Assembly (NCBI RefSeq): GCF_024653915.1
Contig: NZ_JANLGY010000027.1
Location: forward strand, 1-56,498
Direction of reading: 5' to 3'
Length of the DNA: 56,498 nt
Origin: Sulfuricaulis sp.
GTDB lineage: Bacteria > Pseudomonadota > Gammaproteobacteria > Acidiferrobacterales > Sulfurifustaceae
Below the pieces are notes generated by a model that saw only the letters and a list, made by a program, of their open reading frames with translations, was not told where the DNA came from and did no database searches. This document shows positions 18,307-56,498 of this stretch, piece after piece. Within the stretch, counting starts at the first letter, position 1. Each line of letters starts with the position of its first letter. A program made the position numbers and the translations under genes.

Positions 18307-18591
18307 ATGGCACGCACCGTTCGCTGCGCCGTACTGAAACGCGAGGCCGAAGGCCTGGAGCGCCCGCCGCACCCGGGGGCGTTGGGCCAACGCATTTTTG
18401 AAAACGTTTCCAAGGAAGGCTGGAAACAGTGGCTGGCACGCCTGGCCACGATCATCAACGAGAACAAGCTCAGCAGCGCCGACCCCGGCAGCATCAAGGT
18501 GATCGAGCAGCATATGCTCGGGTTCCTGTTCGGCGAAGGCGCTATGGGCCAGCTCCCGGCCGGCTTCCAGGCCGCCGGCGCCAAAAAATAA
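18307..18591 (+). CDS. YggX-like Fe(II)-trafficking protein, second copy
   Basis: A 94-residue YggX-family protein: MARTVRCAVLKREAEGLERP, then PPHPGALGQRIFENVSKEGW. It keeps the conserved Cys7 and the KREAEG and SKEGWKQW blocks. The family protects Fe-S enzymes from oxidants and may donate iron. It differs clearly from the canonical copy at 20360-20635. Placement 42 bp before a radical SAM gene and divergent from erpA suggests it serves that enzyme's cluster. AAGAGG precedes the ATG. Confidence 0.85.
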   Translation: MARTVRCAVLKREAEGLERPPHPGALGQRIFENVSKEGWKQWLARLATIINENKLSSADPGSIKVIEQHMLGFLFGEGAMGQLPAGFQAAGAKK

Positions 18592-18632
18592 CTGCGCCTG
18601 AAAACCCGACGCTGTCGCTCGCGTCTGCTCGC

Positions 18633-20021
18633 ATGAAAGTCGTCCTGATCAATCCCTACGAGATTGGCCGCCAGCCCTTCGGCCTGGCCGAGCCGGCGGC
18701 GTGGCTCGCGCGCGCCGGCTGCGAGGTGCATTGCCTCGATCTCACCCTGCAACGCCTCGACCCCGAAGTGCTGCGCGACGCGCGTGTGGTCGCCATCTAT
18801 GTCGCCATGCACACCGCCACACGCATTGCGATTGAGGCGATACCGCGGGTGCGGGAACTGGCGCCCAAGGCGCATCTGTGCGTTTACGGGCTGTACGCGC
18901 CGATGAATGAAAAGTTGCTGCGCGAGTTGGGCGCGCAAACTGTGCTCGGCGGCGAAGTCGAGCCGGCGCTGGTGTCGCTGGTAGAACGCCTTCGCGCCGG
19001 CGATGGCAAAGTCCAAACCGAGCCGGTGGTGAATCTGTCCAAGATAGAATTCATGACGCCCGATCGCCGCGCGCTGCCGCCGCTGGAACGCTACGCGCAT
19101 TTGCAACTGCCGGACGGCGGCCGCAAGACCGTCGGCTTTGCCGAAGGCACACGCGGTTGCAAGCACCTGTGCCGTCATTGCCCGGTGGTGCCGGTGTATC
19201 ACGGCACGTTCCGCGTCATCCCGGTGGTCACCGTCATGGCCGATATGCGTCAGCAGGTGGCGGCCGGTGCGCAGCATATTTCCTTCGGCGATCCGGATTT
19301 CCTCAACGGCCCGACCCACGCGCTCAAGCTGGTGCAGGCCCTGCACGCTGAATTCCCGGATATTACTTACGACGCCACGATCAAAATCCAGCACATCATC
19401 AATCACGCCGAAATGTTGCCGGTATTGAAAGCCACCGGTTGCCTGTTCATCACCGCCGCAGTGGAATCGGTCGACGACCGCGTGTTGGAACGGCTGGCCA
19501 AGAACCACACGAACGCTGATTTCGCGCGCGCCCTGGCGCTGTGCCGCGCGGCCGGCATCGCGCTCGCTCCGACCTTCGTAGCGTTCACGCCATGGGCCAC
19601 GCTGGAAGGCTACATCACGTTGCTCAAGCGCCTGCTCGAACTTGATCTGGTCGAGAGCGTGCCGCCGATTCAATTGGCCATCCGCCTGCTGATCCCGCAA
19701 GGTTCGCTGCTGTTGGAGTTGCCTGACATGCAAACCCATATTGGCGAGTTCGATTCCAGGCTCTTGGGTTATCCATGGAAAAATCCTGACGCGCGCGTTG
19801 ATCGCCTGCAGCTTGCGGTACAAGACTTGGTGATGAAAACCGAAGCGGAAAAATCAAGCCGGTGCGAAATCTTCGCATCAATTTGGAAACTGGCGCATGC
19901 GGCGCTCGGCGCGGAGATTCCGGAACTGGTGAATAGCGGGAAGAGTGCACCAATCCCGCGCCTGTCCGAACCTTGGTATTGCTGCGCCGAACCGACGCAC
20001 CAGCAACTGCAAAGTTTCTAA
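18633..20021 (+). CDS. Radical SAM protein with C-terminal CCAEP motif (CUAEP/CCAEP-tail type)
   Basis: A 462-residue radical SAM enzyme. Its N-terminal Rossmann-like domain (MKVVLINPYEIGRQPFGLAE) resembles B12-binding domains but lacks the DxHxxG motif. The 4Fe-4S motif GCKHLCRHC (CxxxCxxC) sits near residues 176-183. The C-terminus ends WYCCAEPTHQQLQSF, matching the tail I recall for the CUAEP/CCAEP-tail radical SAM (seleno)protein family, in which some members use selenocysteine. Both positions are TGC cysteine codons here. The reaction is unknown. ATG 18633 follows the YggX-like gene; a longer open frame upstream is its shadow. Confidence 0.82.
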   Translation: MKVVLINPYEIGRQPFGLAEPAAWLARAGCEVHCLDLTLQRLDPEVLRDARVVAIYVAMHTATRIAIEAIPRVRELAPKAHLCVYGLYAPMNEKLLRELGAQTVLGGEVEPALVSLVERLRAGDGKVQTEPVVNLSKIEFMTPDRRALPPLERYAHLQLPDGGRKTVGFAEGTRGCKHLCRHCPVVPVYHGTFRVIPVVTVMADMRQQVAAGAQHISFGDPDFLNGPTHALKLVQALHAEFPDITYDATIKIQHIINHAEMLPVLKATGCLFITAAVESVDDRVLERLAKNHTNADFARALALCRAAGIALAPTFVAFTPWATLEGYITLLKRLLELDLVESVPPIQLAIRLLIPQGSLLLELPDMQTHIGEFDSRLLGYPWKNPDARVDRLQLAVQDLVMKTEAEKSSRCEIFASIWKLAHAALGAEIPELVNSGKSAPIPRLSEPWYCCAEPTHQQLQSF

Positions 20022-20058: not shown

Positions 20059-20134
20059 TGGTGGCCGGGGTCGGAATCGAACCAACGACACGCGGATTTT
20101 CAATCCGCTGCTCTACCAACTGAGCTACCCGGCC
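20059..20134 (-). tRNA. tRNA-Phe (GAA)
   Basis: On the minus strand this 76-nt sequence folds as a complete tRNA. The acceptor stem is GGCCGGG/CCCGGCC, the D-arm GCTC-AGTTGGTA-GAGC and the anticodon arm GCGGA-TTGAAAA-TCCGC with anticodon GAA. The T-arm is GTTGG-TTCGATT-CCGAC, and the 3' CCA is encoded. The good promoter for this unit lies at 20291-20320, upstream of a truncated tRNA and a repeat element, so tRNA-Phe is probably transcribed through both. Confidence 0.96.
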
Positions 20135-20175
20135 ATGCGATTACGGCTTACGTCCATCCCTGTAGGGCCAATCTG

Positions 20176-20250
20176 GCCCGGCCTTCCATGGCCGGGCGCT
20201 CGGCGGCGCAAATGCACGTTAAGTGCATTTGCGAAATCTCCGCCTCTCCC
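20176..20250 (-). repeat. Three-helix structured repeat, copy 1
   Basis: Read on the minus strand: GGGAGA, helix C 5' strand GGCGG, spacer AGATTT, hairpin A (11-bp stem CGCAAATGCAC, loop TTAAC), helix C 3' strand CCGCC, linker GAGC, hairpin B (8-bp stem GCCCGGCC, loop ATGGAA). All three helices are fully paired. Copies 2 (20709-20783) and 3 (56402-56475) have the same fold with different stem sequences. This copy abuts a tRNA 5' fragment directly. Confidence 0.8.
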
Positions 20251-20278
20251 GCTGCTCTACCAACTGAGCTACCCGACC
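20249..20278 (-). pseudogene. Truncated tRNA 5' portion (tRNA-Phe-like)
   Basis: Thirty nucleotides on the minus strand match the 5' end of the neighbouring tRNA-Phe with one difference (GGTCGGG for GGCCGGG). They run from the acceptor 5' strand through the D-arm into the anticodon stem. The match stops exactly where the structured repeat begins. A near-consensus promoter precedes it, so this is probably the original tRNA start, now separated from its 3' part. Confidence 0.75.
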
Positions 20279-20290
20279 GGGGAGCGGCGC

Positions 20291-20320
20291 ATTATAGAAG
20301 AAGCGGTGGGAGTTTGTAAA
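20291..20320 (-). promoter_or_regulatory. Sigma-70 promoter for the tRNA-Phe unit
   Basis: On the minus strand TTTACA (20320-20315) and a perfect TATAAT (20296-20291) are spaced 18 bp apart. They are followed by GCGCCGC, a GC-rich discriminator typical of stable-RNA promoters. The first downstream feature is the truncated tRNA, then the repeat, then intact tRNA-Phe. Confidence 0.75.
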
Positions 20321-20359: not shown

Positions 20360-20635
20360 TTATTTGCTGGCTGGCGGGACGTAACCTTCCGGCAGCTGCG
20401 AGCCCTCGCCGAAGAAATATTTTTCCATCTCGCCCTCGATCATCTTGCGTGCCTTGGGGTCCATGGGGTTGATGCGGTACTCATTCATCAGCATGGTTTG
20501 ATGGCCGAGCCACAGCTTCCAGGCTTCCTTCGAGACGCTTTCCCAGATGCGCTTGCCGAGCTCACCAGGGTAAGTCGGGTAATCCAGTCCCTCGGCCTCT
20601 TTGCCGAGCTTCACACATTTCACCATATGGGCCAT
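20360..20635 (-). CDS. yggX: Fe(II)-trafficking / oxidative damage protection protein YggX
   Basis: A canonical YggX of 91 residues: [20 protein letters not shown], then [19 protein letters not shown], with Cys7 and the C-terminal EGYVPP. It protects labile Fe-S clusters, including that of MutY, whose gene lies just upstream as in E. coli mutY-yggX. Here a structured repeat sits between the two genes. GAGGA precedes the ATG. A divergent paralog lies at 18307-18591. Confidence 0.93.
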
Positions 20636-20708
20636 TAGTAATTCCTCAAATAATAAAATCTTATACCCGCCATCCCTGGCGTTACGTTCGTTGATTCGAT
20701 CAACCCCG

Positions 20709-20783
20709 GCCGCGCCATCCGTGGCGCGGCGCTCGTCAGCGCGATGACACGTTAAGTGTCATCGCGAATTCCCTGACTCGCCC
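20709..20783 (-). repeat. Three-helix structured repeat, copy 2
   Basis: Minus-strand order: GGGCGA, helix C GTCAG/CTGAC, spacer GGAATT, hairpin A (stem CGCGATGACAC, loop TTAAC), linker GAGC, hairpin B (stem GCCGCGCC, loop ACGGAT). All helices pair perfectly but differ in sequence from copies 1 and 3. It overlaps the last codons and the stop of mutY, so the element forms the mutY 3' end. Similarity to copy 3 continues past hairpin B (TTCGAT motif at 20695-20700). Confidence 0.8.
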
Positions 20784-54283: not shown

Positions 54284-54540
54284 AATTTGTCGCAGACCAT
54301 CCTTGGTCTGCGCCCTCTGGGCGCGCTAAAGCGCGACCAAATTCGCTCCCGGCGAATTTGTGTCACACCCATCCCTGGGTGCGACCCCTCCGCACTTCGT
54401 GCTCCGGGGCCGGCCTTCGGCCGTCCAAATTTGTGTCGCAGGCTGTCTTTGGCCCGCGCCCTTCGGGCGCGCTAAAGCGCAGCCAAATTCGCCTGGAGCG
54501 AATTTGCAAAGTCCATTCCTGGTCTGTGGCAAAATGCCTC
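54284..54540. repeat. Tandem array of hairpin-rich units with a period of about 72 bp
   Basis: AATTTG recurs at 54284, 54355, 54428 and 54501 (spacing 71, 73, 73). Units 1 and 3 share GCGCTAAAGCGC and a 9-bp hairpin CAAATTCGC/GCGAATTTG; unit 2 is more diverged. Near each unit start a hairpin appears with an ATCCNT-like loop (CAGACC-ATCCTT-GGTCTG; CACCC-ATCCCT-GGGTG). The array fills most of the 368-bp gap between the divergent receptor and regB genes. Confidence 0.75.
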
Positions 54541-56401: not shown

Positions 56402-56475
56402 GGGCGAGCCGGAAACAGACGAAGACACTTAACGTGTCTTCGTCCCGGCGAGCGCCCCGCCACGGATGGCGGGGC
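56402..56475 (+). repeat. Three-helix structured repeat, copy 3
   Basis: Plus strand: GGGCGA, helix C GCCGG/CCGGC, spacer AAACA, hairpin A (stem GACGAAGACAC, loop TTAAC), linker GAGC, hairpin B (stem GCCCCGCC, loop ACGGAT). All helices pair perfectly. Lies 16 bp after the regA stop and may serve as its 3' end. Similarity to copy 2 extends beyond hairpin B (ATCGAA motif). Confidence 0.8.
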
Positions 56476-56498
56476 CGAGTGTATCGAAGCCTCCGTGG

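Follow-up and report, generated by a model that had tools for sequence, protein, structure and literature searches.

Results

Organization of the tRNA-Phe locus

The locus lies in a 56,498-nt stretch of Sulfuricaulis sp. DNA, called the window below, where the gene order is mutY, yggX, tRNA-Phe. Positions 20360-20635 correspond to the NCBIfam 'oxidative damage protection protein', which we take to be YggX. A repeat, termed element E, lies between an intact tRNA-Phe gene and a partial copy of its 5′ end, termed the stump. The features are as follows.

20291-20320, minus strand: sigma-70-like promoter TTTACA-18-TATAAT, 11 of 12 consensus matches
20249-20278, minus strand: stump, nucleotides 1-30 of tRNA-Phe, with a sole mismatch at nucleotide 3 (T for C)
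20135-20248, minus strand: element E, 114 nt, separating the stump from the intact tRNA; matched by covariance model R1 at 20161-20248 (67.9 bits, this copy being one of the 40 training sequences of R1)
20197-20248, minus strand: hairpin H1 of E, GAGAGGCGG...CCGCCGAGCG
20177-20196, minus strand: hairpin H2 of E, CCCGGCC ATGGAA GGCCGGG
20154-20167, minus strand: H3-like sequence CCCTACAGGGATGG in the tail of E, by eye the counterpart of CGCCAGGGATGGC in other copies
20135-20153, minus strand: final 19 nt ahead of tRNA position +1, dissimilar to the leader preceding the stump
20059-20134, minus strand: intact tRNA-Phe (GAA) with encoded CCA, identified by Rfam
20694-20781, minus strand: second copy of E at the mutY/yggX junction (R1, 62.3 bits), with a clear gene-end duplication absent
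56404-56490, plus strand: third copy of E, at the edge of the window (R1, 64.9 bits)

The initial annotation of this DNA had described a near-perfect minus-strand promoter, 30 nt matching the 5′ end of tRNA-Phe but for one base, a repeat starting inside the anticodon stem, about 40 nt more and then the full tRNA. All of these features were recovered, and the repeat and the 40 nt are recast here as one element made of two hairpins and a 42-nt tail. E starts at 20248 and splits the anticodon stem of the tRNA sequence between nucleotides 30 and 31. The promoter motif occurs once in the window, against 0.2 expected from shuffles. A match of 29/30 nucleotides situated 144 nt upstream of tRNA-Phe is beyond chance.

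No terminator-like site was found inside the window copy of E, and it is plausible that the old promoter would read through stump and E to tRNA-Phe. RNAfold predicts that the stump pairs with the 3′ strand of the tRNA acceptor stem, the whole folding at -106.4 kcal/mol versus -101.2 kcal/mol when stump plus E and the tRNA are folded separately; such pairing may carry a cost. An Rfam scan of the window returned two tRNAs only. Two ORFs cross E on the opposite strand and are mechanical. Elsewhere in the window, a second YggX-like stretch (18307-18573, plus strand, 48% identity) overlaps the start of a CUAEP-tail radical SAM ORF (18429-20021), and positions 54288-54506 contain two direct repeats of 73 nt, 79% identical and 146 nt apart from start to start.

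Structure and distribution of E

An alignment of 40 copies of E folds as H1 (G-Y-GA-GGCGG ... CCGCC-GA-R-C) followed by H2, with changes on both sides in 17 of the 23 pairs. Its covariation score is 0.552, compared with a mean of 0.192 for shuffled alignments, none of which (0/500) reached the observed value, and with at most 0.135 for slid alignments. One measure of the five is weak: 17 pairs have both sides changed, where shuffles give 14.8 and 25 of 500 reach 17. The Y-R pair of H1 is C-G in 19 copies and swaps for U-A in 18. The opposite strand could not form the GA/GA internal loop, which makes E strand-specific. The covariation thus indicates that E is a strand-specific palindrome with conserved secondary structure.

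R1 (E-value at most 1e-4, 12 candidates scored per genome in the class sample) matched 41 of 369 genomes of the class. Seven of 299 genomes were matched in the phylum sample, the window genome included, and two of these lie outside the class and score at most 54 bits. The pattern TAGCTCAGYYGGN{0,30}GAGGCGG matched 3/57 genomes of the order (4 places) and, in the class, 13/369 genomes at 15 places; four of these places, as read, are tRNA-Arg genes matching by themselves. The pattern AGCTCAGYYGGGYGAGGCGG returned 15 loci from the named genome collection, 10 being real insertions and 5 chance matches. E passes no Rfam gathering score: at the 20 E loci scanned, the tRNA alone was above it. Most elements at tRNA genes measure about 107-135 nt, and some stand in tandem arrays.

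The left junction is constant in most copies. GG directly precedes E in 97 of 102 distinct R1 matches against a background of 8%; R1 itself does not contain GG, but some loci came from patterns that do. GG is missing at a parE stump and at two tRNA stumps (L242, L243). E then usually begins with G[C/T]GAG (GAGAG in the window) and continues into H1; the first four nucleotides of the 102 copies are GTGA in 56, GCGA in 33, GAGA in 6 and other sequences in the rest. A promoter borne by the right end of E (TATAAT after H3, seen at L050) was considered and discarded, being inconsistent across copies by eye.

Empty sites in related genomes

A YggX protein search of 41 genomes gave 30 loci, and all 21 of those with tRNA-Phe were compared. 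Seven of the nine genomes of the genus (G001 to G007) lack both stump and E, the leader running directly into an intact tRNA-Phe; in G001, G003 and G006 (L018, L019, L020) the same promoter leads straight into the gene. Both are present in the other two, the window genome and G008. No stump without repeat, the outcome that would have spoken against an insertion, occurs among the nine. This pattern supports the proposal of the initial annotation that a tRNA gene had received an insertion with partial duplication, and the co-occurrence indicates that stump and E arrived together at tRNA-Phe.

E-type repeats are present at 4 of the 21 tRNA-Phe loci: in the window, in G008, in G013 (another genus) and in G038 (another family). 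In G013 the insertion follows nucleotide 19 and its sequence is unlike that of the window; as insertion point and sequence both differ, the arrangement appears to have arisen more than once. Comparison of G008 with the window at the same tRNA-Phe site revealed one E nested in the H2 loop of another E, with no duplication.

Insertions in other tRNA and rRNA genes

The same layout, with tRNA fragments beside the repeat, was found at many tRNA genes. Genes for ten tRNA species were found to contain E, which almost always enters after GG within an arm. In 37 rows of our compilation E precedes a tRNA end that its stump matches, a few of the copies being counted against two tRNAs. Sense entry takes place after nucleotides 18-19 in Arg, Lys, Phe, Thr, His, Met and Gly genes, mostly at G19 of the D-loop; after nucleotides 29-30 in Met, Trp and Phe; after nucleotide 10 in Ser; and after nucleotide 5 in Gly. 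All seven antisense rows (Arg, Met, Pro) have E 16 nt from the CCA end, in the T arm. Among 29 scored junctions, the sense insertion point k is 19 in 20 cases, 30 in two, and 18, 10 and 5 once each; the four antisense junctions have k=16. The value k=19 is over-represented because the pattern searches demanded a D-loop, and loci found via R1 alone also have mostly k=19, plus 5, 18, 29 and 30.

The window genome carries three tRNA-linked copies of E, at Phe (window), Ser (L068) and, in antisense, Arg (L003). In S. limicola HA5 a single tRNA-Arg (L066) is flanked by E at both ends and tRNA-Thr contains a copy too, one tRNA-Ser (L271) received two successive insertions, and at L240 a tRNA-Phe-like stump is located between two E copies ahead of tRNA-Met. 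The initial annotation had also suggested a tRNA-linked attachment. The link to tRNA genes is right, given that the layout recurs at many of them, and an integrase-type site does not fit an element of 114 nt found in varied tRNAs at varied insertion points. Its other suggestion, a tRNA-derived element, is not supported: many E copies lie outside tRNA genes without adjoining tRNA sequence.

Some further arrangements were observed. At L238 (G075 C1:1015895-1016852, a single-contig genome) seven E units with a period of about 145 nt precede a tRNA-Met-like gene, which has two opposite-strand E copies on its 3′ side. E is found twice in tandem beside an antisense 5S rRNA (Rfam) at L244, and beside an antisense 5S rRNA at L163. 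In S. variabilis tRNA-Ser (L420, G011 C1:2010729-2010997), a partial tandem copy has a different hairpin element in its anticodon loop.

Insertions at protein genes

In S. variabilis, E follows the first 76 nt of rng, twice in tandem, ahead of a complete rng, and at L277 it follows a 28-nt parE stump that is similar over its first 23 nt. L094 contains two units with the first 38 nt of a PPi-phosphofructokinase (pfk) gene. Differences between stump and intact gene fall on third codon positions in 4/4 cases for parE and 4/5 for the inner pfk stump, next to the gene; the outer pfk stump has four third-position differences by eye. The rng stump differs once in 76 nt, at a second codon position. 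Dead stumps should decay evenly, and the bias, from few sites, suggests that two functional alleles have met. A separate copy in S. limicola (L254, G005 C1:1459801-1459886) resides in frame inside uvrC (NCBIfam), adding about 40 residues and no stop.

Extent of the duplicated segment

The tRNA is usually complete behind E, its end up to the insertion point being repeated. We hand-picked 31 junctions among those listed, merging orthologues and excluding most loci with upstream E remnants; 29 were scored, since L232 gave no tRNA call and L248 could not be aligned usably. Within arrays, a stump was compared with the next stump, not with the intact gene. Unbroken stump identity extends 0 nt past the gene end at 14 of the 29 junctions and at most 2 nt at 21; it overruns by 3-9 nt at six and by more than 9 nt at two. 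Although insertion points range from 5 to 30 nt, on these alignments the duplication is seen to stop exactly at or close to the 5′ end of the mature tRNA, or at CCA when E is antisense. As set by the insertion point, the repeated part ranges from 5 to 42 nt at tRNA genes and spans 78 nt at rng.

There are exceptions. Identical leader is duplicated over 23 nt at L060 and trailer over 12 nt at L237, and at L246 the match continues 17 nt past the end with one mismatch. About 55 nt of leader are duplicated at L420, with the element other than E. The repeat at L163 is of 10 nt, inside the 5S rRNA and short of its end, and only 5 nt are duplicated at L252 (antisense Ser). The uvrC copy, like the nested copy revealed by G008, has no duplication.

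Discussion

A single insertion of E, a strand-specific hairpin-forming mobile repeat, into tRNA-Phe between nucleotides 30 and 31 is the best explanation of the locus as a whole, and we give it a probability of about 0.72. The left end of E would be joined directly 3′ of GG in the stem or loop of a tRNA arm, presumably while the target strand was single-stranded or extruded as a hairpin. An event would survive when E is followed by a further copy of the gene end as far as the insertion point, whether this copy was made anew by strand or template switching or came in together with E from another allele. Transcription from the old promoter probably runs through to the tRNA, which normal 5′ processing would then release.

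Two of the accounts that we weighed fit the locus poorly. The stump might be a tRNA pseudogene, formed by tandem duplication, that a repeat entered later, as the partial tRNA-Ser copy of L420, with its other hairpin element, could illustrate; nothing of tRNA nucleotides 31-76 lies behind the window E, and the nine genus genomes have stump and E together or neither, which makes this origin improbable. Bacterial tRNA genes also host genomic islands and prophages; these encode an integrase and usually rebuild the gene at its 3′ end. E resembles them in that the tRNA is split and restored and direct repeats flank the segment, and differs in leaving a 5′ stump and in its size here, the 114 nt between stump and tRNA being too short for an integrase gene or a large insert. 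With similar elements at many tRNAs, varied insertion points, lengths of mostly about 107-135 nt and tandem arrays, the remnant of an island after deletion is very improbable.

The remaining accounts differ in how the gene end was doubled. Plain target duplication does not predict a stop at the gene terminus. If the end were simply copied, leader repeats could have any length. The gene-end stop and the third-position bias are both expected if E was imported with a foreign gene end: E would recombine in together with its leader and the initial part of a foreign gene copy, the left end at GG and the right end by homology within the gene, so that the stump would be native, the intact 5′ end foreign and identity would start at the gene terminus. 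The third-position differences of parE and both pfk stumps agree with this, as do the tRNA-Phe-like piece between two E copies before tRNA-Met at L240 and tRNA-Ser stumps that differ from the intact copy of their own genome. Against it, the third-position sample is small, the single rng difference is at a second position, identical leader is duplicated (L060, and L420 with its other element) and a clear stump-less E before a tRNA, the expected donor form, is absent among the loci read (L252 is antisense). Import is one possible route, less likely than not. Rebuilding from RNA predicts stops at RNA ends: E, as a bacterial counterpart of tRNA-gene targeted retroelements, would nick tRNA genes at the GG of an arm and the end would be remade from mature or precursor tRNA. 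A template of this kind would account for duplications that end at +1, at CCA or a few nucleotides into leaders or trailers; it fits start codons poorly, and we consider it unlikely. HUH/Y1, REP-like transposition in trans is a doubtful candidate: Y1 would join folded E to GG on a single strand, the right end re-priming upstream and duplicating the gene end. The strand-specific hairpin, fixed left end and flank recall the logic of IS200/IS605 and REP elements, as set out in PMC8266576 and PMC6006769, and Y1 genes were seen in 14 of the 20 genomes that were checked among the 41 with E. None was found in the other six, three of which are at least 97% complete; G067, G188 and G300 are genomes without a Y1 gene found. 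R1 matches 1 of 24 Y1-transposase loci (L153), four of the 24 being from genomes with few or no E, and the 11 RAYT-size genes whose flanks were inspected adjoin, by eye, GTAG repeats of their own (on one side only at L143, near a contig end), the tag GTAG being absent from E. Y1 transposases are thus candidates for moving E, untied to it so far, and RAYT as the mover was set aside.

E is a non-coding repeat that has repeatedly entered tRNA genes in many Gammaproteobacteria with a complete tRNA kept. Annotation of tRNAs can be misled by the stumps and by the arrays, in which as many as seven stump-repeat units occur. The gene-end stop of the duplication offers a testable choice between copying, import and RNA templating.

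Among known systems, REP/REPIN elements with their RAYT (TnpAREP) are the closest in kind to E. Both are short, strand-specific, dispersed palindromes with a constant left flank, some in coding sequence, and the covarying H1 with its GA/GA internal loop has this strand-specific character. E differs in having two or three hairpins and neither a GTAG nor a CGTC tag (GTAG is not among the first-four-nucleotide classes listed for the 102 copies), in entering tRNA arms after GG with gene-end duplication, and in that the RAYT genes here adjoin other repeats. Lacking the tag and, at the loci seen, a cognate gene, E is not filed as REP. Rickettsia palindromic elements share in-frame residence in proteins, as with E in uvrC; they are unlike E in their CGTC tag (PMC3733652). 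E does not behave as a DNA transposon or MITE, the repeated part having no fixed length. We know of no tRNA-arm insertion by the Rickettsia elements, nor of a described bacterial element with this habit of E. A literature search, with most subscription journals outside its reach, found no E-like element in bacterial tRNA genes.

A preference for tRNA or small RNA genes is common to E, which is non-coding and bacterial, and to several eukaryotic elements. Ty3 and TRE5 retrotransposons target tRNA genes, inserting upstream of the gene (PMC5911963), and Dada transposons, with a DDE transposase and 6-7 bp duplications, prefer tRNA and other small RNA genes (PMC3706591). E offers a parallel in bacteria to the way in which tRNA genes are targeted in yeast and Dictyostelium.

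As to carriage of E by viruses, a pattern scan of viral contigs yielded at least 120 stretches, and R1 run over 80 of them gave one weak match (28.8 bits). At the one Y1 locus with E (L153, G006 C298), E precedes the Y1 match by about 120 nt. RAYT-type genes at L138, L139, L144, L145 and L149-L152 have flanking GTAG repeats of several different sequences, by eye. The Xanthomonas sX9 RNA (Rfam RF02228) was rejected as the identity of E: one copy has a sub-threshold match (39.1 vs 44 bits) that spans the host repeat around E, and the other 19 loci tested have none. At L090, E lies within an element with ends AGAAGCTGTCTCAAAAAC and overlaps the sub-threshold sX9 match.
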